NCBI GenBank assembly: GCA_020850615.1
Contig: JADZEI010000055.1
Location: forward strand, 1-38,134
DNA length: 38,134 nucleotides
Reading direction: 5' to 3'
DNA from: Dehalococcoidia bacterium
GTDB lineage: Bacteria > Chloroflexota > Dehalococcoidia > Tepidiformales > Tepidiformaceae
The stretch's first letter is position 1; every line of letters begins with the position of its first letter. A program made the position numbers and the translations under genes. The notes below the pieces were generated by a model that searched no databases, was not told the DNA's origin, and saw nothing but the letters and a program-made list of their open reading frames with translations. Of the stretch, positions 18,074 through 38,134 are shown piece by piece.

Positions 18074-19012
18074 GTGGCCGCCCCACGGCCACCGGCACCG
18101 ACTCGCGCGCCCCGGTCTCGCCGGACAGCCACACGCTGGTCCCAGGCTGACACCGCACCGTTCCGGTTCGACGGTTCATGGTGGTCACGCGGATCAGGCG
18201 GCGAAGCCCTGCTCTTCGATGAGGCGAACGGCCGCTGGTACCGCCCGCCCTCCCACGAAACGCCGTTCTTCATGCGCCGCCCGAAGTTCAGCTCTCTCCA
18301 GACACCCGCGCTATTCGTCTACATCCTCCTCGGCGCGTTTTGCGCCGCCACCGCCTGGGCCATCTTCATCGACATCGACCGCGCGCTGCTCTTCGACGCC
18401 CTCGCCAGGAGGTCGCAACTATCGGCGGGAAACATCGTCCGCTGGGACGAAAGCGATTCGTGGTTGGAAACGGCGAAGGGGCTGCAGTTCCTGGCGACGC
18501 TTGCCAGCGTCCCGGCCTTCATCTGGTGGACCCGGCGGGCGACGTGCAACGTGCAGTCCTTTGGCATCGAGCGCCCCGAGTTCTCGCCCGCCTCGGCCAT
18601 CTGGTGGTGGTTCGTACCCATCGCCAACCTCGTGCAGCCCCTGCGCGTCCTGAACCAGGCGTGGCGAGCCTCCGGGCCCGACACGATCGACGACTACGAG
18701 CGTTCCTACCGTGCCGCCTCCATCCCGCCGGTCCTCCCGATCTGGTGGGTGCTCTGGCAGGTCTGCAACGTGCTCTGGGGCGCCGTCCCCACCGCCACGG
18801 ACGACCCGGACCTCACGATGGCCGACCTCGCCGGGTTCGCCTGGTTCACGGCCGTGGTGGATGCGGGCATGCTGGTCTCCGCGGTTCTCGCAATCGTTGT
18901 CGTCGCGATGCTGACGATCAGGCCGACGAGAGCCTCGACATCGAAGCCGACACCGACTGAACCGCACCCGCCACAGGCCGCGGGGCAACCACAGCCGCCC
19001 ACCCAAGCGTGA
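18074..19012 (+). CDS. DUF4328 membrane protein, downstream part of the split gene
   Basis: From GTG 18074 this is 312 aa in the same frame as the zinc ribbon at 17966. A Pro/Arg-rich linker (about 35 aa) leads to a short Trp/Gly motif (FDGSWWSRGSGGEALLFDEANGRWYRP), then at residue 67 MRRPKFSSLQTPALFVYILL begins the DUF4328 domain with about five membrane helices. Conserved DUF4328 elements include FIWWTRRATCNVQ.FG, FSPASAIWWWFVPIANLVQPLRVLNQAWRASGP and PIWWVLWQVCN. The tail is Thr/Pro-rich. No Shine-Dalgarno precedes 18074 or nearby starts, so the native start is probably 17966, read before the TAG at 18035. Initiation at ATG 18272, directly before the first helix, is another option. The stop overlaps the next GTG (GTGA). 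Confidence 0.72.
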   Translation: MAAPRPPAPTRAPRSRRTATRWSQADTAPFRFDGSWWSRGSGGEALLFDEANGRWYRPPSHETPFFMRRPKFSSLQTPALFVYILLGAFCAATAWAIFIDIDRALLFDALARRSQLSAGNIVRWDESDSWLETAKGLQFLATLASVPAFIWWTRRATCNVQSFGIERPEFSPASAIWWWFVPIANLVQPLRVLNQAWRASGPDTIDDYERSYRAASIPPVLPIWWVLWQVCNVLWGAVPTATDDPDLTMADLAGFAWFTAVVDAGMLVSAVLAIVVVAMLTIRPTRASTSKPTPTEPHPPQAAGQPQPPTQA

Positions 19013-19022
19013 ACCGTGAATC
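19009..19022 (+). repeat. Heptanucleotide repeat GTGAAYC, two units, containing a start and a stop codon
   Basis: GTGAACC and GTGAATC. The first heptamer supplies both the TGA stop of the DUF4328 gene and the GTG start of the next gene, so the repeat has become coding. Confidence 0.6.
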
Positions 19023-19554
19023 CGCCCCTCCCCGCCTGTTCCACTTCAGCGAGGACCCCCACATCCCCCGCTTCGAACCGCGCGCCGCCCCCGCCCACCC
19101 CGCCCTCGCCCCCGCCGTCTGGGCCGTCGATGAGCTGCATGCCCCCGCCTACACCTTCCCCCGCGATTGCCCCCGCATCCTCCTCTGGCGCACGCCGGAG
19201 ACCACGGACGCCGACTGGCGCCGCTGGGCCGGGAACACCGCCGCGCCGTTCGTCGCCTTCGTCGAATGGGACGCCCTGCGGCAGCTCCGCGAGACTGCTC
19301 TCTACCGCTACGCGCTCCCGCCCGGGACGTTCGGGCCGCTCCCCGGCGACCCGTGGATGTGGGTGAGCCACGAGCCCGTCACGCCCCTCGGCGTCGAACC
19401 CGTCGGCGACCTCCTCGATGCCATCGCCGCCGACGGCACGGAACTCCGCTTCGTGCCGTCGCTCGCCCCGCTCCACGGCGCCTGGGAGTCCACGGTTCAC
19501 TTCTCCGGCATACGCCTCCGCAACAGCCGCACGTGGCCGCCGGCCACCCGGTGA
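19009..19554 (+). CDS. DUF6886-like protein
   Basis: A 181-aa soluble protein resembling the DUF6886 family. The conserved opening RLFHFSEDPHIPRFEPR, then PAVWAVDELHAPAYTFPRDCPRILLW, is distinctive. Later come FVEWDALRQLRETALYRYALPPGTF and W.WVSHEPVTPL. No enzymatic motif is known to me for this family. The GTG start overlaps the TGA of the upstream gene and lies within a GTGAACC heptamer; GTG 19016 is out of frame. It is the last gene before the repeat region and before the change in strand composition. Confidence 0.75.
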   Translation: MNRESAPPRLFHFSEDPHIPRFEPRAAPAHPALAPAVWAVDELHAPAYTFPRDCPRILLWRTPETTDADWRRWAGNTAAPFVAFVEWDALRQLRETALYRYALPPGTFGPLPGDPWMWVSHEPVTPLGVEPVGDLLDAIAADGTELRFVPSLAPLHGAWESTVHFSGIRLRNSRTWPPATR

Positions 19555-19561
19555 CGAGCAT

Positions 19562-19996
19562 GGAGGTGGGGTGAAGGCGCTCCCGGCGAGCCGGGCGGGC
19601 GTTGCGCTGCCGCCCTCGGTCGGGGGCTGCCGCGGGGCATCCGTTTGGCTGACGCCAGCGCCCACGAGGGGCGCGGGCTACGACGGTGGCGCGGCGTCGT
19701 TCATGCGGGCGGGATGTCGGTGGAGGTGGGGTAACGCGTTCCGGGCGAGCCGGGCGGGCGTTGCGCTGCCGCCCTCGGTCGGGGGCTGCCGCGGGGCATC
19801 CGTTTGGACGCCAGCGCCCACGAGGGGCGCGGGCTACGACGTGGCGCGGCGTCGTTCATGCGGGGCGGGATGTCGGTGGCGGTGGGGTGACGCGTTCCGG
19901 GCGAGCCGGGCGGGCGTTGCGCTGCCGCCCTCGGTCGGGGGCTGCCGCGGAGCATCCGTTTGGCTGACGCCAGCGCCCACGAGGGGCGCGGGCTAC
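19562..19996 (+). repeat. Tandem array, three units of about 160 bp
   Basis: Units begin at 19562, 19722 and 19878 (spacings 160 and 156). Each contains GGNGGTGGGGT, CGGGCGGGCGTTGCGC, TCGGTCGGGGGCTGCCGCGG and the hairpin GCGCCC-ACGAG-GGGCGC followed by GGGCTAC. The third unit is truncated after this hairpin. The hairpin-CTAC core is the one shared with the 140-bp array at 34620-35330. Confidence 0.88.
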
Positions 19997-20027
19997 TGGG
20001 GATCGCGGGCTGACGCGGGGGATGGTA

Positions 20028-20075
20028 CGGACAATCCCGCGGAGCAATGCTCCGCGGCTACGGCTGCGGGGCCTG
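20028..20075 (+). repeat. Hairpin-CTAC repeat element, plus orientation
   Basis: GGACAATC, then CCGCGGAGCA-A-TGCTCCGCGG (20037-20057), then CTACGGCTGCGG. It is a near copy, inverted, of 17811-17855. Confidence 0.78.
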
Positions 20076-20115
20076 TGGCGTGGTCGCGGGCTACCGTGAG
20101 GCATGGCCCTGGGGG

Positions 20116-20157
20116 CCGCAGAGCCGGTGCTCTGCGACTACGGCTTCGCCACCTGCG
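20116..20157 (+). repeat. Hairpin-CTAC repeat element, diverged copy
   Basis: Stem CGCAGAGC/GCTCTGCG (20117-20124 with 20129-20136), then A-CTAC, then GGCTTCGCC. The architecture is the same as other copies but the stem differs by compensating changes. Confidence 0.6.
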
Positions 20158-20160
20158 GTG

Positions 20161-21378
20161 TCATTTGATGATGGCGCGGTCGCGGAGGGTGGCGATTCCT
20201 TCGGGGGTCATGTTGAGCCAGCGGTGGAGGATGTCGTCGGTGTCGCCGCCGTGCCCGGGCATGGGGCGGGTGATGCGGGGTGGCGTGGCGGAGAGGTGCA
20301 TCGGGGAGTTCGGGAGCTTGAGCGAGCCGGGGAGGCCGTAGGGCAGGGGGACATCGACGAGCATGTTGCGGGCGGCAACGTGGGGGTCGTGGAAGAGGTC
20401 GTCGATGCTGTTGACCTTGCCGATTGCGCAGACCTTCGCGGGTTCGATGATGGCGAACCACTCTTCGGTGGTGCGCTGTTCGAGGGCGTCGCTGAGCTCG
20501 GCTTCGAGGAGGTCGACGTGTTCGAGGCGGGCGCGGTTCGTGGCGAAGCGGGGGTCGAGGGCCATGTCGTCGCGGTCGATGAGGGCGCAGAAGAGCTCCC
20601 ATTCCTTGACGTTGGCGATGACGACCCAGCCGTCCTTCGTGGGGAAGGGGCCGAAGGGGGCGAGGAGGGCGTGGCGGCTGCCCTGGCGGGTGGGGTGCTC
20701 GTTGAAGGCGGAGCGGCGGACGATAGCGTTCTCGCAGAGGGCGAGCTGGGCCTCCATGAGGGCGACGTCAAGGAGCTGGCCTTCGCCGGTGAGCTCGCGG
20801 GCGCGGAGGGCGGCCATGATGCCGAGGGCGAGGTAGAGCCCGCCGACCATGTCGCCGATGCTGACGCCGACGCGAGTGGGGGGGCCGCCGAGCTCGCCGT
20901 TCAGGCCCATGGTGCCGCCCATGGCCTGGGCGACGGCGTCGACGGCGGCCATATGGCTGTAGGGGCCGGTCTGGCCGAAGCCGCTGAGGGCGCCGTAGAT
21001 GAGGCGCGGGTTCTCGGCGCGGAGGACTTCGTAGCCGAGGCCGGCGCGGGCCATGGCGCCGGGGCGGAAGTTCTCGGTGAGGACGTCGGCTTCGCGGGCG
21101 AGGCGGATGACCAGGTCCCGGCCCTCGGGTGTGCGGAAGTCGATGCAGATGCCGCGCTTGTTGCGGTTGGGGCTGAAGAAGAAGGTGGAGACGCCTTCGT
21201 AGTAGGGGCCGAAGCCGCGCTCCTTCTCGTGGGTGCCGGGGTGCTCGACTTTGACGACTTCGGCGCCGAGGTCGGCGAGCTGCATGGTGCCGAAGGGGCC
21301 GGCGAGGGCCCAGGTGAAATCGAGGACGCGGACACCCTGGAGGGGTGCGATGGGCTGGGAGGGAGCGGGGGTGGTCAC
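20161..21378 (-). CDS. CaiB/BaiF family III CoA-transferase
   Basis: A 405-aa CoA-transferase of family III, moving CoA between carboxylic acids through an aspartyl thioester. The N terminus PLQGVRVLDFTWALAGPFGTMQLADLGAEVVKVEHP is diagnostic, as are NRNKRGICIDFRTPEGR, LTENFRPGAMARAGLGYE and LIYGALSGFGQTGPY. The catalytic Asp is D176 in SIGDMVGGLYLALG. The donor and acceptor are not predictable; a nearby crotonase (22049-22816) makes acyl-CoA catabolism plausible. The GTG start at 21378 lacks a Shine-Dalgarno but has TACCAT 6 nt upstream. It is downstream of and codirectional with the nucleotidyltransferase gene. Confidence 0.92.
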   Translation of the reverse strand: MTTPAPSQPIAPLQGVRVLDFTWALAGPFGTMQLADLGAEVVKVEHPGTHEKERGFGPYYEGVSTFFFSPNRNKRGICIDFRTPEGRDLVIRLAREADVLTENFRPGAMARAGLGYEVLRAENPRLIYGALSGFGQTGPYSHMAAVDAVAQAMGGTMGLNGELGGPPTRVGVSIGDMVGGLYLALGIMAALRARELTGEGQLLDVALMEAQLALCENAIVRRSAFNEHPTRQGSRHALLAPFGPFPTKDGWVVIANVKEWELFCALIDRDDMALDPRFATNRARLEHVDLLEAELSDALEQRTTEEWFAIIEPAKVCAIGKVNSIDDLFHDPHVAARNMLVDVPLPYGLPGSLKLPNSPMHLSATPPRITRPMPGHGGDTDDILHRWLNMTPEGIATLRDRAIIK

Positions 21379-27954: not shown

Positions 27955-28021
27955 ATGTGCGTCGCGAAAGGACGCGGCCTGGAGGAAGCGCGAGGCGCTG
28001 GCCTTCTGGCTGCGTCCCACA

Positions 28022-28105
28022 CCGCTTCCCTACGCCCGCATTACCGGGGTCAGGTTCCTGGGGTGGTCCCTACGACGGGATCTCAGCCTTGCGGCCCCCC
28101 CAGCG
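28022..28105 (-). ncRNA. TPP (THI-box) riboswitch aptamer
   Basis: On the minus strand the conserved THI elements appear in order: GGGGGCC, then GGCTGAGA (P2/P3 pyrimidine-sensing region), the P3 stem TCCC/GGGA, CCACCCCAGGAACCTGA, then GGTAATGCGGGCGTAGGGAA closing P4/P5. All core consensus blocks (CUGAGA, ACCUGA, GGUAAUGC, GCGUAGGGAA) are intact. The P3 arm is short. It controls the downstream thiamine-binding protein and ABC transporter operon, repressing uptake when TPP is abundant. Confidence 0.95.
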
Positions 28106-28132
28106 GCATGCCCAATGTTGGGTATAGGCGGG

Positions 28133-30481: not shown

Positions 30482-30682
30482 GTGATCGAACTCACGCGCA
30501 TCGACGGCACGACGTTCTACCTGAACCCGGACCACATCGAGCTGATGGAGGGTTCGCACGAAACCCACATCACGCTTTCGAACGGGCACAAGTACGTGTG
30601 CGCTGAATCGCCGGACGTGATCGTGGAGCGAATCGCGGAGTACCGGCGGTCGGCGTCGGCGATGCTGCGGAGGATTGCGTAG
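30482..30682 (+). CDS. flbD: FlbD-family flagellar protein
   Basis: A 66-aa protein of the FlbD/SwrD family (MIELTRIDGTTFYLNPDHIELMEG, then THITLSNGHKYVCAESPDVIVERI). In Bacillus the SwrD protein increases flagellar motor power, and the gene typically sits just before motA as here. Length is normal (about 60-75 aa). The GTG start has AGGAGG 9 nt upstream. Its TAG shares one base with the motA GTG, so expression is coupled. Confidence 0.9.
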   Translation: MIELTRIDGTTFYLNPDHIELMEGSHETHITLSNGHKYVCAESPDVIVERIAEYRRSASAMLRRIA

Positions 30683-31497
30683 TGGACATCGCGACGCTCC
30701 TCGGGCTGGTCCTGGTGCTGGTCGGCATCATCGGGGGGAACATCCTCGAGGGCGGCAACCCGATGGCCCTGATCAACCTGCCGGGGTTCATGATCGTGAT
30801 CGTGGGCACGCTGGGGGCGACGGCGATGTCGCAGCCGCTGCCGGTGCTGATGAGCGCGCCGAAGGGGATCATCGCGGCCTTCCTGGGCGGGGCGAAGCAC
30901 GACGCGGGCGGGACGGTCGACCTCTTCGTGAACATGTCGGACAAGGCGCGGCGGGAGGGCCTGCTGGCGCTGGAAGGCGACGTGGACAAGATCCACGACC
31001 CGTTCACGCGCAAGGGCGTGCAGCTGATGATCGACGGGACGGACCCGGAGTTGCTGCGGGAGATCATGGAGATCGACGCGGGCGCGCAGAAGGAGCGCGA
31101 CGCGCACACCTACGAGATCTTCGAGTTCATGGGCGGCATCGCGCCGACGATTGGCGTGCTTGGCGCGGTCATGGGCCTGATGGGCGTGATGGGCCACCTG
31201 GACGAGCCGGACCACATCGGCCCCGGCATCGCGACGGCCTTCGTGGCGACGTTCTACGGGGTGTTCACGGCGAACGCGCTGTTCCTGCCGATCGGCAAGA
31301 AGCTGCAGAACAACAGCAAGCACCAGCAGACCTACCTGGAGCTGGTCATCCAGGGGCTGATGTCGATCCAGTCGGGCGATAACCCGCGGATCGTGCGGGA
31401 GAAGCTGGAAGGGTTCCTCGCGCCCGGCCAGCGGAAGCGGGGTGGCGAGTCGGAGGGCGGGTCCGAGGGTGGCTCGAGCCGCAGGGAAGCGGCATGA
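30682..31497 (+). CDS. motA: Flagellar stator protein MotA
   Basis: A 271-aa MotA, the ion-channel stator subunit with four membrane helices. IATLLGLVLVLVGIIGGNILEGGNPMALINLPGFMIVIVGTLGA gives the first two helices. The large cytoplasmic loop carries charged residues that contact FliG. The TM3 signature IFEFMGGIAPTIGVLGAVMGLMGVMGHL contains the conserved Pro, and TM4 follows (IATAFVATFYGVFTANALFLPIGKKL). The tail after about 250 is Gly/Ser/Arg/Glu-rich. It starts at GTG overlapping flbD and ends with an ATGA overlap into motB. Confidence 0.95.
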   Translation: MDIATLLGLVLVLVGIIGGNILEGGNPMALINLPGFMIVIVGTLGATAMSQPLPVLMSAPKGIIAAFLGGAKHDAGGTVDLFVNMSDKARREGLLALEGDVDKIHDPFTRKGVQLMIDGTDPELLREIMEIDAGAQKERDAHTYEIFEFMGGIAPTIGVLGAVMGLMGVMGHLDEPDHIGPGIATAFVATFYGVFTANALFLPIGKKLQNNSKHQQTYLELVIQGLMSIQSGDNPRIVREKLEGFLAPGQRKRGGESEGGSEGGSSRREAA

Positions 31498-32246
31498 GCA
31501 AGAAGGCCGATGTCCCAAAGCCAGAAAACCACGAACGGTGGATCGTCAGCTATGCGGACATGCTGACGCTGCTGTTCGCGCTCTTCGTGGTGTTGTACGC
31601 GACGGGCAACCCGAACACCGAGAAGCTCAAGCAGGTGCGGGAATCGCTCGACGACGCGTTCAACACGGGCGTGCTGCAGGGTTCGAACGGGGATTCGCCG
31701 ATCTTCGAGGGCAGCGGGATTACGTCGAGCATCGCCAACATCAAGTCGGCGGACCTGGAAGCGATCGCCGAGGAGGTCGGCACGTTCGCGCAGACGGCGG
31801 GGCTGGACGGGAAGATCCAGATCCGTTCGGAGGCGGACCGGATCACGATCAGCCTGGCGGACAACCTGCTGTTCGATTCGGGGAGCGCGGAGCTCAAGCC
31901 GGGCAGCCAGGACGTGCTGCTGATGGTGGCGGGCGTGCTGAACCACCTGCCCAACGACCTGAAGATCGAGGGCCACACGGACAACGTGCCGGTGAACAGC
32001 CCGGACTACCCGACGAACTGGGAGCTCTCGGCGGCGCGATCGTCGACGGTGCTGCGGTTCCTGGTGGAGGCGGGGACGGTCTCGGGGGCGCGGATGGAGC
32101 TGGCGGGATACGCGGAGACGCATCCCATCGCGGATAACGCGACGGCGGAAGGGCGCGCCCTCAACCGGCGCGCGGACATCGTGATCATGTACCCGACGCA
32201 GGAGGACCTGGAGCGGGCCCTCAGCGCGGCAGGAGCCCAGCCATGA
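31494..32246 (+). CDS. motB: Flagellar stator protein MotB
   Basis: A 250-aa stator subunit with one membrane helix. The ion-carrying Asp is D22 in VSYADMLTLLFALFVVLYAT. The plug/linker (about 45-105) leads to the OmpA-like peptidoglycan-binding domain, with LLFDSGSAELKP, IEGHTDNVPVNSPDYPTNWELSAARSSTVLRFLV and NRRADIVI. Together with MotA it forms the proton- or sodium-driven stator anchored to the wall. Its ATG overlaps motA (ATGA), and its stop overlaps fliL (ATGA). Confidence 0.95.
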   Translation: MSKKADVPKPENHERWIVSYADMLTLLFALFVVLYATGNPNTEKLKQVRESLDDAFNTGVLQGSNGDSPIFEGSGITSSIANIKSADLEAIAEEVGTFAQTAGLDGKIQIRSEADRITISLADNLLFDSGSAELKPGSQDVLLMVAGVLNHLPNDLKIEGHTDNVPVNSPDYPTNWELSAARSSTVLRFLVEAGTVSGARMELAGYAETHPIADNATAEGRALNRRADIVIMYPTQEDLERALSAAGAQP

Positions 32247-32755
32247 TGAAGGACAAGAAGGTGCTGGCCGGGGGAGGCGTGCTGCTGCTCGCCCTCTTCT
32301 GGTTCTACATCAAGCCAAACTACGTAGACGCGAAGCCGCCGCCACCTCCGCCGAGCGAGGAGGAGATCGCCGCGGCGCCGAAGCCGACGCTGACGATCCC
32401 GGGGAAGGGCGAGGAGCCGCTGATCCTGAACCTGAAGAGCACGGGGACGGGGCAGGCGTACGCGAAGGTGGAGATCGCGCTGGAGTTCGAGGACCCGGAC
32501 CTGGAGTTCCTCGGGGTCAGCGGGCATGCGCTGGTGCTGAAGAACGAGGAGTTCGCCTCGCACATGGAGACGGAGGTCCACCGGATCCGGGACGCGATTT
32601 CGCGGGTGATCGGCGCCAAGACGCTCGCGGAGGTTTCGACCGTGGAGGGGCGCGAGGCGTTGAAGGAAGAACTGATCGAGGCCATCAACGAGGAGATGCA
32701 CACCCACCATGTCGCGAGCGTGTACTTCTCGAGCTTCGTGACCGACGGGCAGTAG
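32243..32755 (+). CDS. fliL: Flagellar basal body-associated protein FliL
   Basis: A 170-aa FliL with one N-terminal membrane helix ([17 protein letters not shown]), a proline-rich linker ([10 protein letters not shown]) and the extracytoplasmic FliL domain ([25 protein letters not shown], then [18 protein letters not shown]). The C-terminal [11 protein letters not shown] is characteristic. FliL supports stator function under load. It overlaps motB by ATGA and precedes the switch protein gene by 10 nt. Confidence 0.92.
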
Positions 32756-32765
32756 GAGGGGAGCG

Positions 32766-33908
32766 ATGTCCGACCCGAAGAGCATCCTGGCACAGCTCCT
32801 CTCGCCGGCGCAGGCGGAGGCGCTGAGCCTCGCAGGGGCGGAGGCGTGGGAATCGGCGGCGGGCTCGCTGGAGCTGCTGCTCGCGGGCACGCCCGGGCTG
32901 GCCTCGGCCGAGGCGCGGCTGGTGATGCCGGACGAGATCGTGGGCGAGTTCGCGGACCCGCACCTCGTCCTCCCGGTCGAGCTTTCGACGGCGAAGGACC
33001 AGTCGGCGAACGCCTACGTCATCGCCGGGACGGGCGCGGCGGCGGCGTTCTTCGATTCGGAGGCGGACGACCCGGGCGACCAGGAACAGCAGACGATCAT
33101 CATGGCGTCGACGATTGCGGCGCAGCTGATCCAGGCGATGAACGCGCAGGTGTTCGGGCGGTCGCCGGACGGGCTGGTGGTGTCGCTGGACGACGTGGCG
33201 GTGAACGCGATGCCGGAGCTGCTCGAGGCGATGGACGACCCGGCGCTGCTGCTCACGCTCGGGCTGGAGGTGGGGAAGCCGCTTTCGCTGCGGATGGTGC
33301 TGCCGGGCACGTTCCTGGACATCTTCGCGGGGGCGATGCCGGTGATGACGGCGGCGGAACCGGAGCCGGCGGCTGCACCCAAAGCGAGTGCGATCGACCC
33401 CTCGCTGGGGTTCACGCTTTCGGAAGACGACCTGGACGCGGCGGAGCTGATCGAGGACCCGCAGCCGATCCGGGCGGCGGCGTTCGCCGCGGCGCCGATG
33501 GGTGCGGAGCCCGTTGGCGCGGGCGCGGGGATTGGCGGCGGGAGCGCGGCGTTCAGCGAGCCGCCGCCGCGCGAGCCAACGCCGATCTCGGCGGCGCCGG
33601 CGTCGCACCGGGCGCGGTTCGCACCGCTGCCGGAGGCGGAGCCGGCGCGCCAGCGGAGCCCGATCGACATGCTCGCCGGGCTGCGGATGAACGTCTCGGT
33701 GGAGCTGGGGCGGACCGAGCTGACGGTGGCGGAGGTGCTGGGGCTGGGGCCGGGCTCGGTGATCGAGCTGGACCGGCTGGCCGGCGAACCGGTCGACATC
33801 CTGGTGAACGACCGGCTGATCGCGCGGGGCGAAGTCGTGGTCGTGGACGAGAACTTCGGCGTGCGGGTTGTGGAAGTGGTGCGCCGCGGGAAGGGTGACG
33901 AGGACTGA
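32766..33908 (+). CDS. fliN: Flagellar motor switch protein, FliN/FliY type
   Basis: A 380-aa protein. Residues 1 to about 200 resemble the CheC-like half of FliY/FliM ([11 protein letters not shown] near 62, [21 protein letters not shown] near 112, [20 protein letters not shown] near 165). A 105-residue Ala/Pro/Glu-rich linker follows, and a FliN/SpoA domain (about 305-375: [67 protein letters not shown]). The CheC phosphatase motif D/SxxxExxN reads with Gln for Glu (QAMN), so CheY-P hydrolysis is doubtful. SD GGAGG lies upstream. No fliM lies in the window. The stop overlaps the fliO ATG by one base. Confidence 0.85.
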
Positions 33909-34579
33909 TGAACAACCGGCCGGACCGCAAACGCCTGCTCTGGTTCGCCGCGATCGGCGGGGTGGTGCTGGCGGCGTTGCTGTTCGTGTCGATGATGGCG
34001 CCCTCGGCGCACCCGGGGGAGGAATCGCCGATCCTGCGGCCCCAGACGACCGCGGCCGGTTCGAGCGCTCCCGATGAGCAGCTCACCGGCCGCACGACCG
34101 TCCCGGCGGAGGCGGATACGGGCGGCGGCGGGGGATTCTCGCTCTCGGGCGGGGAAGCGGTCTCGCTGGCGTGGCGGCTGGCCCTGGCGGCGGTGATCAT
34201 CGGCGTCTCGATCGTAGGGTTGCGCTGGTGGGGGAAGCGGACCCAGGGGCCGCGGAGCACGACCGGCTTCATCCGCGTGGTAGACACGCTGGCGATCAGC
34301 AACGGACGGACGATCCACCTGGTGGCCCTGGGGGACCGCGTGATCGCGGTCGGGGCGACGACACAGCAGCTGACGCTGCTGAACGAGCTCACGGACGAGG
34401 AAGCGGCGGACGTGCTCACGGCGACGCCGGCGAACGGGAACGGGCAACAGCTCTCGACGTTCGCGGCGGAGCTGTTCGCCTCGATGCGGCGGACGGGGAC
34501 GGAGGGGCGGAGCGCGGGGACGCGGCGGGAGGCGGCGGTGGAGCGGGGGGAAGGGGCGGAGCCGACGATCGGGCGGTAG
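33908..34579 (+). CDS. fliO: Flagellar biosynthetic protein FliO
   Basis: A 223-aa FliO-like protein with a first hydrophobic segment (about residues 10-30, LLWFAAIGGVVLAALLFVS), a 60-residue polar linker, a second helix (about 86-107, LAWRLALAAVIIGVSIVGLRWW) and a FliO domain (IRVVDTLAISNGRTIHLVALGDRVIAVGATTQQLTLLNEL). FliO assists assembly of FliP rings in the flagellar type III export gate. The C-terminal 50 residues are low-complexity. The gene shares one base with fliN (TGATG). Unusually, fliP does not follow directly; a 0.9-kb repeat island intervenes. Confidence 0.88.
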   Translation: MNNRPDRKRLLWFAAIGGVVLAALLFVSMMAPSAHPGEESPILRPQTTAAGSSAPDEQLTGRTTVPAEADTGGGGGFSLSGGEAVSLAWRLALAAVIIGVSIVGLRWWGKRTQGPRSTTGFIRVVDTLAISNGRTIHLVALGDRVIAVGATTQQLTLLNELTDEEAADVLTATPANGNGQQLSTFAAELFASMRRTGTEGRSAGTRREAAVERGEGAEPTIGR

Positions 34580-34591
34580 GGCGGGGGCGGG

Positions 34592-34612
34592 TTCACGATT
34601 CACGGTTCACGC
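34592..34612 (-). repeat. Heptanucleotide repeat TTCACGN (GTGAAYC reversed), three units
   Basis: TTCACGA, TTCACGG, TTCACGC just after the fliO stop, in the same orientation as the copies at 23831 and 28175. Confidence 0.72.
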
Positions 34613-34619
34613 GGGATCG

Positions 34620-35290
34620 GGGCGGTGTCGAGCGCGGGCGCGGGGCGGCCGGGGCCTGCTGCGCCGCCCGGCGATACCGATTCGCGGCGGGGCCTATCGG
34701 GGTGGCATGCATTGGGCTTAGACGCTCGGGCCCACGAGGGGCCCGGCTACACCTGGTGGTATGGCCATCAAGCGCTGCCGCGGGGCGTGCCGGGCCTGCT
34801 GAGCAGCCCGGCGATCCGGGGGCGGAGCGGTGCCTATCGGTGGGGCAGGCGTTGGGCTTAGACGCTCGGGCCCACGAGGGGCCCCGGCTACACCTGGTGG
34901 TACGGCCATCAAGCGCTGGCGCGGGGCGTGCCGGGCCTGCTGAGCAGCCCGGCGATCCGGGGGCGGGGCGGTGCCTATCGGTGGGGCAGGCGTTGGGCTT
35001 AGACGCTCGGGCCCACGAGGGGCCCCGGCTACACCTGGTGGTACGGCCATCAAGCGCTGCCGCGGGGCATGCCGGGCCTGCTGCGCGGCCCGGCGATCCG
35101 GGGGCGGCGGCGGGGCCTATCGGTGGGGCATCCGTTGGGCTTGGACGCTCGGGCCCACGAGGGGCCCCGGCTACACCTGGTGGTATGGCCATCAAGCGCT
35201 GGCGCGGGGCGTGCCGGGCCTGCTGAGCAGCCCGGCGATCCGGGGGCGGGGCGGGGCCTTCGGTGGGGCATCCGTTGGGCTTAGACGCAC
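34620..35290 (+). repeat. Tandem array, about five units of 140-142 bp, inside the flagellar export operon
   Basis: The gap between fliO and fliP (34580-35501) is mostly this array. The marker CCCACGAGGGG recurs at 34731, 34871, 35012 and 35154 (spacings 140, 141, 142). Each unit holds GGGCCC-ACGAG-GGGCCC, then GGCTAC, a ACACCTGGTGGTA segment, a GCCGGGCCTGCT/AGCAGCCCGGC hairpin and a GGGGGCGGGG tract. The fifth unit swaps its hairpin for the element at 35290. Open frames across it (34171-35226 plus, 34593-35195 minus) are translated repeats. The remaining 35331-35470 shows no gene. Confidence 0.9.
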
Positions 35291-35330
35291 CGCCGAGGCT
35301 GGGCTCGGCGGACTACCGCTTCGCGGTGAG
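35290..35330 (+). repeat. Hairpin-CTAC repeat element closing the array
   Basis: Stem CGCCGAG/CTCGGCG (35291-35297 with 35304-35310), GACTAC, then ACCGC-TTC-GCGGT. It is nearly identical to the inverted copy at 12502-12546. Confidence 0.75.
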
Positions 35331-35470
35331 CTGGCGCGGAGCCCGGGCCTCCCGGACCTCGAATTGGCGGGGTGGTGGGAGCTGGGAATTCAGGGGTGCA
35401 GGGCGGCTTGTCAGGGTGAGCACCAATGCGGAATGGGCCTTTCCCGATAACTCTGTGAAGCGGCCGAACC

Positions 35471-35496
35471 TACCCTGAGGTCACCTTCAGAGGAGG
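35471..35496 (+). promoter_or_regulatory. Candidate -10 and Shine-Dalgarno for fliP
   Basis: TACCCT (35471-35476) fits TANNNT, and AGGAGG (35491-35496) precedes the GTG at 35502 by 5 nt. A separate promoter would be needed if the repeat island stops transcription from fliO. Confidence 0.4.
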
Positions 35497-35501
35497 CCGC
35501 C

Positions 35502-36263
35502 GTGGCCGGGATCGTTCGCCGCCCCATTGTCGTTGGCGCACTGCTGGCTGCGGCGGGGTTCGTGGCGATGGGCGGGCTTTCGGCGCAGGGCGCGGCGGCG
35601 CAGGGGGCGCAGCCGATCGACACGCAGAACCCGCAGAACGTCTCGGCGGCGCTGCAGATCCTGCTGATGGTGACGGTGCTCTCGCTGGCGCCGGCCATCC
35701 TGGTGATGGTGACGTCGTTCACGCGGATCATCGTGGTGTTGTCGTTGCTGCGGACGGCGATTGGTATCCCGCAGCTGCCGCCGAACCAGGTGCTCATCGG
35801 GCTGGGGCTGTTCCTGACGGTGTTCGTGATGGCGCCGGCGATCAAGCAGATCAACGACGAGGCGATCCAGCCGTACATGAACGGGACGCTGACGCAGCAG
35901 GAGGCGTACAGCCGGGGCGAGGAGCCGCTGCGCGAGTTCATGTTCAAGCAGACGCGGGAGCAGGACCTGGGGCTGTTCCTGAAGCTGGCGGGGGCGGAAA
36001 AGCCGGAGAACCGGGACGAGGTGCCGACCTATGTGCTGGTGCCGGCGTTCACGATCTCCGAGCTGAAGACGGCGTTCCAGATGGGGTTCGTGCTCTTCAT
36101 CCCGTTCCTGATCATCGACCTGGTGGTGTCTTCGGCCCTGCTGAGCATGGGCATGATGATGCTGCCGCCGGTGGTGGTCTCGCTGCCGTTCAAAATCTTG
36201 CTCTTTGTGCTGGTCGATGGGTGGTACCTGATCGTGGGTTCGCTCGTCGGGAGCTTCGCGTGA
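35502..36263 (+). CDS. fliP: Flagellar export gate protein FliP
   Basis: A 253-aa FliP with a cleavable signal peptide (about residues 1-35, ending AQGAAAQ) and four membrane helices. [41 protein letters not shown] is the strongly conserved first helical pair, with [20 protein letters not shown] next. The periplasmic loop contains the [20 protein letters not shown] signature, and the C terminus reads [21 protein letters not shown]. FliP, FliQ and FliR form the export gate at the basal body. The GTG start is fixed by AGGAGG. Confidence 0.96.
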
Positions 36264-36279
36264 GCGTGGGAGAAACGCG

Positions 36280-36549
36280 ATGAACGAATCGGTGGTGATC
36301 GGGCTTGCGCGCGAGGCGCTGTGGACGTCGCTGATCGTGGGCGGTCCGATCATGGGGATCGCGCTCGTGGTGGGCATCGTGATCAGCGTGATCCAGGCGG
36401 TGACGCAGGTGAACGAGATGACGCTGACGTTCGTGCCGAAGCTCGTCGCGGTGTTCGTGGGGATGCTGATCATGGGCCCCTGGATGATGGAGGCGATGAT
36501 CAGCTTCTCGACGGGCATTTTCGGAAACATGGCGATGTACGGGCGCTGA
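36280..36549 (+). CDS. fliQ: Flagellar export gate protein FliQ
   Basis: An 89-aa protein with two membrane helices. VVIGLAREALWTSLIVGGPIMGIALVVGIVISVIQAVTQVNEMTLTFVPKL matches FliQ throughout. The normal length is 86-90 aa. The start follows GAGAAACGCG, a weak ribosome site, 17 nt after fliP. The second helix ends with MIMGPWMMEAMISFSTGIF. Confidence 0.96.
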   Translation: MNESVVIGLAREALWTSLIVGGPIMGIALVVGIVISVIQAVTQVNEMTLTFVPKLVAVFVGMLIMGPWMMEAMISFSTGIFGNMAMYGR

Positions 36550-36557
36550 GGACGGAG

Positions 36558-37331
36558 ATGCTGACGCTTTCGCCGCAGTTCACCTATGCGTTTCTGCTCC
36601 TCCTGATCCGGACGAGCGCGATGCTGGTGTCTGCCCCGCTGCTGAGCCACCGGGGCATCCCCGCGTGGACGAAGGTGGGGTTCGCGGTGTTCATCGCGCT
36701 GGTGCTGGTGCCGGCGGAGAGCGAGCGGCTGCCAGACGCACCGAACGACTTCGGGACGGTTGCGGCGGCGGTGATCGCCGAGACGCTGTTCGGGCTGGCG
36801 CTGGGGCTGGCGATGCAGCTGGTGTTCGTGGGCCTGCAGATGGGCTCGCAGATCCTGGGCATCCAGATGGGCTTCGGGCTCGGGTCTGTGTACGACCCGG
36901 TGACGGGCGCACAGTTCGGCGCGTTCGACCAGTTCTACGCGGTGCTGGTGACGCTGGTGTTCTTCACGATGAACGGGCACTACATGGTCATCCAGTCGCT
37001 CGCGGAGACGGTGCGGGCGGTGCCGCTCGGGACGTTCAACCCGCTGGTCATCGAATCGGGCGAGATCGCGGCGCTGATCACGGGGCTGTTCGTGACCGCG
37101 GTGCGGGTCGCCATGCCGGTGCTGGCGGCGCTGTTCCTGACGGACGTGGGGATGGGCTTCGTGGCGCGGACGGTGCCGCAGGCGAACGTCCTGGTGGTCG
37201 GCATGCCGATCAAGATCGGCGTCGGGATGATCGTGATGATGGCGGCGCTGCCGCTGACGACCACGCTGATCCAGGGCGTCATCGGGAATGAGCTGGCGGG
37301 TTCGAGCCAGCGGCTGCTGGGGGCGGGCTGA
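36558..37331 (+). CDS. fliR: Flagellar export gate protein FliR
   Basis: A 257-aa FliR with about six membrane segments. FTYAFLLLLIRTSAMLVSAPLLSHRGIPAWTKVGFAVFIALVLVP and GLQMGSQILGIQMGFGLGSVYDPVTGAQ are diagnostic, as is the C-terminal NVLVVGMPIKIGVGMIVMM. ATG at 36558 is chosen: GGACGGAG lies directly upstream and the protein then has the usual N terminus. The longer frame merely overlaps fliQ. It ends sharing one base with flhB (TGATG). Confidence 0.95.
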   Translation: MLTLSPQFTYAFLLLLIRTSAMLVSAPLLSHRGIPAWTKVGFAVFIALVLVPAESERLPDAPNDFGTVAAAVIAETLFGLALGLAMQLVFVGLQMGSQILGIQMGFGLGSVYDPVTGAQFGAFDQFYAVLVTLVFFTMNGHYMVIQSLAETVRAVPLGTFNPLVIESGEIAALITGLFVTAVRVAMPVLAALFLTDVGMGFVARTVPQANVLVVGMPIKIGVGMIVMMAALPLTTTLIQGVIGNELAGSSQRLLGAG

Positions 37332-38134
37332 TGTCGGCGGAACGCAGTGAGGCCCCAACCCCACGCCGGCGCGAGGATGCGCGCAAGAAGGGCAATGTCG
37401 CGCGGAGCCAGGACCTGGTCTCGGTGGGGACGCTGCTGGTGGCGGTGATCGGCATGCGGTTCGCGGGGCCGGCGCTCTGGGGCGACATGCAGGACATCCT
37501 CGGCGAGGGGCTCTCGAACCAGTCGGACCAGGAGCTCACGGCGTCGACGGCGTACCAGCTGGCGCGGGATTCGGGCGTGCGGATGCTGATGGCGCTGGCG
37601 CCGCTGTTCGCGATGGTGATGCTCGCGGGGGTGGCGTTGAACCTGGGGCAGACGGGCCTGATGTTCAGCGGCTCGGGGATCAAGCCGAAGATGAACGTGC
37701 TCAACCCCGCTAGCGGTGCGAAGAAGCTCTTCGGCAAGGAAGCGACGGTTTCGCTGGCGAAGGCGCTGGCGAAGATGGGGACGATCACGGTCGTCGTCTA
37801 CATGACGATGAAGGGGCAGCTCGCGGCGATCGCGGGGATGAGCCTGGAGACGCCGGCGCAGGCGACGGCGCACATGGCGCAGCTCGGGTTCGATATCGCG
37901 ATCCGGGCGGCGGTGGTGCTGTTCCTGATCGGCGTGGCGGACTGGGCGTGGCAGCGGCGCCAGTGGATGTCGAACCTGAAGATGACCAAGGAAGAGGTCC
38001 GCCAGGAGATCAAGGAGACGGACGGCGACCCGCAGGTCAAGGCGGCGATCCGGCGGCGGCGGAACGCGCTGCTGAACCGGATGATCGCGTCGGTGCCCAA
38101 GGCGGACGTGGTGGTGACGAACCCGACGCACTTC
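37331..38134 (+). CDS. flhB: Flagellar export switch protein FlhB (partial)
   Basis: The first 268 codons of FlhB; the gene runs off the window. The N terminus SERSEAPTPRRREDARKKGNVARSQDL is typical, followed by four membrane helices and the cytoplasmic start MKMTKEEVRQEIKETDGDPQVKAAIRRRRN. The last visible residues VVVTNPTHF include the N-P-T-H autocleavage site (N264-P265) that switches substrate specificity from rod/hook to filament. The ATG overlaps the fliR stop. About 90-100 residues are missing at the C terminus. Confidence 0.96.
   Translation, partial: MSAERSEAPTPRRREDARKKGNVARSQDLVSVGTLLVAVIGMRFAGPALWGDMQDILGEGLSNQSDQELTASTAYQLARDSGVRMLMALAPLFAMVMLAGVALNLGQTGLMFSGSGIKPKMNVLNPASGAKKLFGKEATVSLAKALAKMGTITVVVYMTMKGQLAAIAGMSLETPAQATAHMAQLGFDIAIRAAVVLFLIGVADWAWQRRQWMSNLKMTKEEVRQEIKETDGDPQVKAAIRRRRNALLNRMIASVPKADVVVTNPTHF

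Follow-up and report, generated by a model that had tools for sequence, protein, structure and literature searches.

Strand asymmetry at replication boundaries

In most bacteria, the rpmH-rnpA-yidD-yidC gene cluster together with parS forms the origin region of the chromosome. Origin and terminus are also marked by the composition of the two strands, the GC skew switching from C to G at oriC and usually from G to C at the terminus, where the switch is found at dif. As a rule, the leading strand is assumed to be G-rich (PMC3269012, PMC8941118, PMC2031905, PMC6042203), and the minimum of the cumulative G-C curve is used to locate origins (PMC6042203, PMC3269012). In a survey of AT and GC biases, the usual negative correlation between both was obtained for 17 of 17 Chloroflexi, and a positive correlation for atypical Firmicutes (PMC5291525). 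The AT skew of the latter is reversed, while their leading strand is still G-rich (PMC5291525). An incomplete search of the open-access literature yielded no description of a bacterium with inverted GC skew.

The window considered here, i.e. the whole stretch of 38,134 nucleotides that was analysed, corresponds to an entire contig (C55) of a 4.17-Mb draft genome in 95 contigs. Its plus strand switches once and sharply from C-rich to G-rich. The switch resembles known terminus boundaries in the sharpness of the reversal, its independence of gene direction, its intergenic extent and the convergence of the genes, but it runs from C to G and no canonical dif was found with it. The C-to-G polarity and the single sharp switch are shared with oriC boundaries; however, dnaA, parS, rpmH and DnaA boxes are all missing, and parS and rpmH of the relatives are located at the opposite switch. 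Like the Firmicutes with atypical AT skew, the family of this genome seems to depart as a lineage from the usual G+T composition of the leading strand, with the difference that the reversal appears to concern the GC skew (compare PMC5291525).

With a probability of about 0.6, the switch is a terminus-type replichore boundary in a chromosome that has a C-rich leading strand. It is likely that the whole family (14 genomes tested) displays a strongly inverted skew with a C-rich leading strand, in contrast to the usual G-rich one of its sister families in the class, and that the window holds the terminus of one of its members. The family-wide inversion is both more surprising and better supported than the terminus reading of this particular switch.

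Composition reversal within the window

The initial annotation had described a change of the plus strand from C-rich to G-rich, and this reversal proved to be real in genes of both directions as well as in intergenic DNA. GC skew calculated per 1 kb ranged from -0.08 to -0.24 in all intervals before 19 kb and from +0.13 to +0.26 in all those past 20 kb, and it changed from -0.16 to +0.20 when 6 kb were taken on each flank. The maximum-likelihood change point was obtained at 19,550 (2dLL = 834; the interval given in Table 1 lies within 5 log units), and the cumulative skew of the window reaches its minimum at 19,549. Genes left of the switch have a mean skew of -0.16 on the plus strand and -0.19 on the minus strand, and both means are positive on the right (Table 1). 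The ranges of the 20 genes on the left and the 21 genes on the right are disjoint (Mann-Whitney p = 5e-8). Intergenic DNA gave values of -0.18 and +0.19 left and right of the switch, respectively, and the skew at four-fold sites showed one value per strand (+0.51 and -0.60). The reversal of composition is independent of gene direction, as expected for a terminus. G+C content and four-fold-site usage are similar on both sides. Within the ~1.4 Mb sampled of the 4.17-Mb genome, this is the largest skew reversal, the runner-up going from -0.06 to +0.14.

Table 1. Features at and around the skew switch, with positions in the window
Feature	Position	Strand	Remarks
C-rich plus-strand segment	1..19554		mean gene skew about -0.17 on either strand; 15 of 20 predicted genes on the plus strand
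DUF6886 protein gene (PF21820)	19009..19554	+	nearest gene on the left side of the switch
Skew change-point interval	19474..19666		best position 19,550
Tandem array, 156-bp unit	19561..19996	+	2.8 copies, 94% matches; diverged relatives dispersed genome-wide (67-94% identity)
G-rich plus-strand segment	19997..38134		mean gene skew +0.17 (plus strand) and +0.20 (minus strand)
Hairpin-CTAC element	20040..20061	+	
Hairpin-CTAC element	20119..20141	+	
CoA-transferase family III gene (PF02515)	20161..21378	-	nearest gene on the right side of the switch; points towards the DUF6886 gene

The switch is located at the start of the intergenic region 19,555-20,160, which is filled by the 156-bp array, the left edge of the array adjoining the switch. 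Gene directions converge on this point: with one exception, the genes are on the plus strand over 7.0-19.55 kb, and they are mostly on the minus strand over 20.2-28.9 kb. No tRNA gene was found in the window. The DUF6886 protein has a sole match in the genome collection, in Paenibacillus. An NMT1/THI5 transport operon on the minus strand is preceded at a short distance by a TPP riboswitch (28010-28111, minus strand), and flagellar genes (MotA, FliM/N C-ring, FliP and FliR-type) occupy the plus strand from 30682 to 38134.

Two families of short repeats, the hairpin-CTAC and the GTGAAYC elements, had been proposed to change orientation at the switch. The elements themselves exist, but the orientation rule is weak and has exceptions already within the window, as GCGGCTAC is also present on the plus strand left of the switch (9,351 and 13,470) and GTGAAYC also on the minus strand of this side (6,179, 18,843 and 19,494). 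In a sampled third of the genome, the distribution between the G-rich and the C-rich strand was 73:53 for GCGGCTAC and 107:140 for GTGAAYC. Repeat orientation follows the skew strand as a weak tendency at best; being near 50:50 genome-wide, it was dropped as a replication marker.

Landmarks of origin and terminus in this genome

The three parS sites of the genome and its rpmH-rnpA-yidD genes were located on contig C66, and dnaA on contig C70. The earlier statement that dnaA, DnaA boxes and dif are absent from the window was borne out: near-matches to the DnaA box (20 against 22 expected) are not in excess there, and a search with the canonical dif pattern revealed no dif-like site. Clusters of canonical DnaA boxes were detected nowhere in the sequence sampled from this genome and its relatives. 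Genome-wide searches for canonical dif in seven genomes of the family gave match counts near those of the controls and not above chance, suggesting that the dif of this family may be diverged.

The skew on the flanks of the parS sites (L179) is weak, and a G-to-C polarity is weakly visible. The C-rich strand is the coding strand of dnaA and the str/S10 genes, and the G-rich strand that of the tuf-nusG and SRP54/S16 blocks and of 10 out of 14 tRNA genes. Taken over all genes, there is no strand bias, 50% being on the G-rich strand. Orthologues of the genes lying near parS in the complete relative G013 are mostly found on low-skew contigs here, and those of genes at mid-distance mostly on strong-skew contigs. 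Contigs with near-zero skew (C66 with parS, C67, C35, C30, C86 and others) amount to ~1 Mb and clearly skewed ones to ~3 Mb. The amplitude of the skew seems to rise with distance from parS in this genome, which is the opposite of G013. TA skew was considered as an independent mark of polarity and was dropped because the C-rich strand is T-rich at four-fold sites, while the intergenic DNA of this genome indicates the opposite.

Skew polarity in relatives of the same family

G013 has a complete chromosome of 2.75 Mb, of which about 15% was sampled. Left of 1.28 Mb, most of the arm has a skew of +0.15 to +0.24, and values around -0.2 were obtained right of 1.3 Mb; in more detail, positive skew extends to 1.16 Mb and negative skew begins at 1.298 Mb, with an island of mixed sign at 1.28-1.295 Mb. 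A cluster of five near-perfect parS sites (1,296,937-1,297,341) is situated at this sharp G-to-C change, flanked by rpmH-rnpA-yidD on one side and, on the other, by a propeller gene and then yidC. The skew across parS also goes from about +0.2 to -0.27 in G148, a complete genome of the same genus, and from +0.09 to -0.085 in G012, a complete genome of another genus. The G-to-C polarity at parS is displayed by G012, G013, G148 and G021, and it is opposite to the C-to-G polarity in the window, as it should be for a terminus. In two other members of the family (G006 and G007), the rpmH strand is C-rich on both flanks of parS, without a change of sign, so that the exact origin may be elsewhere near parS. 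At the opposite pole of G013 the skew is weak, and the C-to-G pole of both G013 and G148 is gradual, whereas the switch in the window is sharp. Genes of G013 are slightly more often on the C-rich strand.

In the family, the parS cluster is intergenic, lies beside rpmH-rnpA-yidD (G013 L147:15700-17700; L176-L181, L209 and L210) and comprises as many as seven parS-like sites; canonical DnaA boxes are absent from it. Two regions of G013 have a low skew within an otherwise strongly skewed chromosome. One of them is an island (L147:1-9700) with DNA polymerase III alpha and an SPP1-type portal gene; the other, at 420-440 kb (L139), was taken as a candidate ribosomal operon and turned out to be a prophage with terminase, portal and tail genes.

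The S10 operon (L2) is directed away from parS in G012, G013 and G148, as would be expected of an operon on the leading strand with an origin at parS. Over the whole S10 locus, 13 of the 14 family genomes show a negative skew of the coding strand; the remaining one is neutral with -0.001, and 10 of 10 genomes from other families range from +0.002 to +0.126. At third positions, the coding-strand skew reaches -0.12 to -0.51 in the family. In the four family genomes with a strong local skew, dnaA is coded on the C-rich strand. Four-fold-site skew amounts to about 0.4-0.6 in the two genomes measured. Because of the G-to-C change at parS, the direction of the S10 operon and the location of both S10 and dnaA on the C-rich strand, the leading strand of this family appears to be C-rich, i.e. 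its GC skew is inverted.

In most of the other families of the class in which parS was found, it is downstream of rpmH. Where their skew is clear, both flanks of parS belong to one domain with a G-rich rpmH strand, which is the usual arrangement. In two genomes of one such family (G093 and G066, family f17), 29 and 10 perfect parS sites, respectively, are spread over many contigs; most other genomes have one to few.

If the inversion in the family is true, origin finders which assume a G-rich leading strand would swap its origin and terminus. As the leading strand of bacteria is regarded almost universally as G-rich, an inverted lineage would be mis-oriented unnoticed. The reversed family and its sister families with usual skew would then offer a natural contrast for the cause of GC skew, be it polymerase, repair or damage bias.

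Nature of the switch

Since parS and rpmH are located at a G-to-C switch in complete genomes of the family, the C-to-G switch in the window would correspond to the terminus, provided that this genome has the same polarity. Replication forks would start in the parS/rpmH-rnpA-yidD-yidC region, at a G-to-C switch, and would meet near 19.5-20 kb of the window, at a C-to-G switch; strand-specific mutation would give the opposite composition on the two sides. We infer parS to be the marker of the origin, this genome to have the polarity of its family and the switch to be a terminus and not the endpoint of a rearrangement. A terminus in a C-leading genome had been mentioned in the initial annotation among several possibilities. 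It is now the best supported of them, owing to the relatives' parS at the G-to-C switch and to the C-rich coding strand of the family's S10 operon. In this genome, it is favoured by the absence of a comparable reversal from the ~1.4 Mb sampled, by the distribution of the parS-near and mid-distance orthologues over low-skew and strong-skew contigs, by the convergence of genes on the switch and by dnaA and str/S10 on the C-rich strand. Against it stand the missing dif, the weak skew at the parS sites of this genome and its mixed gene-direction evidence, as well as G006 and G007 with their constant sign at parS and the gradual C-to-G pole in the genus of G013. The same earlier text had associated the polarity with a replication origin under the usual G-rich leading strand. 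A C-to-G switch is indeed what origins show in most bacteria, and most of the tRNA genes as well as the tuf-nusG and S16 blocks are on the G-rich strand here. However, the switch has no DnaA-box cluster and no dnaA, rpmH/rnpA or parS in its vicinity, these genes and sites being on other contigs, and it is a point where genes converge. In addition, the relatives have parS at the opposite polarity, with the S10 operon directed away from it on the C-rich strand. As canonical boxes are also missing at parS of the family, their absence is not peculiar to the window. Altogether, the origin proposal is not supported, and an origin at this position is very improbable.

The switch may also be the endpoint of a rearrangement, an inversion or another event, within a replichore, for which dispersed repeats such as the 156-bp array would have served as recombination site. 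That the switch is located where an array with numerous dispersed relatives begins points in this direction, and so do the heavily rearranged genomes of the family and the distance of 440 kb that separates in G013 the block left of the switch (TlyA-NAD kinase-RecN) from the block on its right (CoA-transferase to GGDEF). An inversion predicts a matching sharp G-to-C switch, and none was seen in the ~1.4 Mb sampled of the 4.17 Mb. The full-strength skew on both flanks is compatible with a terminus and with a rearrangement alike. Given the mixed evidence from gene directions and the lack of a dif-like site, an endpoint at the 156-bp array has to be kept in consideration. The gradual C-to-G pole of G013 and G148 is contrary to the sharp switch observed here, and an inversion endpoint therefore retains about a quarter of the probability. 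An assembly artefact, in which unrelated pieces of the same genome were misjoined through a repeat, would fit a draft of 95 contigs in which the join falls in repetitive DNA. It is less likely, because, in the third of the genome that was sampled, the longest exact match of the junction elsewhere is below 50 bp, and a genome-wide search gave no alignment of the junction above 94% identity. The agreement of G+C content and four-fold-site usage across the junction also argues against a misjoin, which is considered improbable.

Divergent DnaA proteins

DnaA of this genome scores 222 bits, compared to the NCBIfam equivalog cut-off of 344. In several members of the family, its signature is of the GGRDKSTV or GGRDRSTV type, with K or R replacing the usual H (GGRDHTTV). 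Divergent DnaA is encoded at loci L001 (C70), L156, L158, L160, L161 and L163. The divergence of DnaA may be a reason for the missing canonical DnaA boxes in the family. In addition, L002 (G000:C27:43357-44388) and its counterparts in most of the family genomes searched code for a conserved protein, ~470-560 aa in length, in which two DnaA/DnaC/IstB-like AAA+ domains are arranged in tandem.
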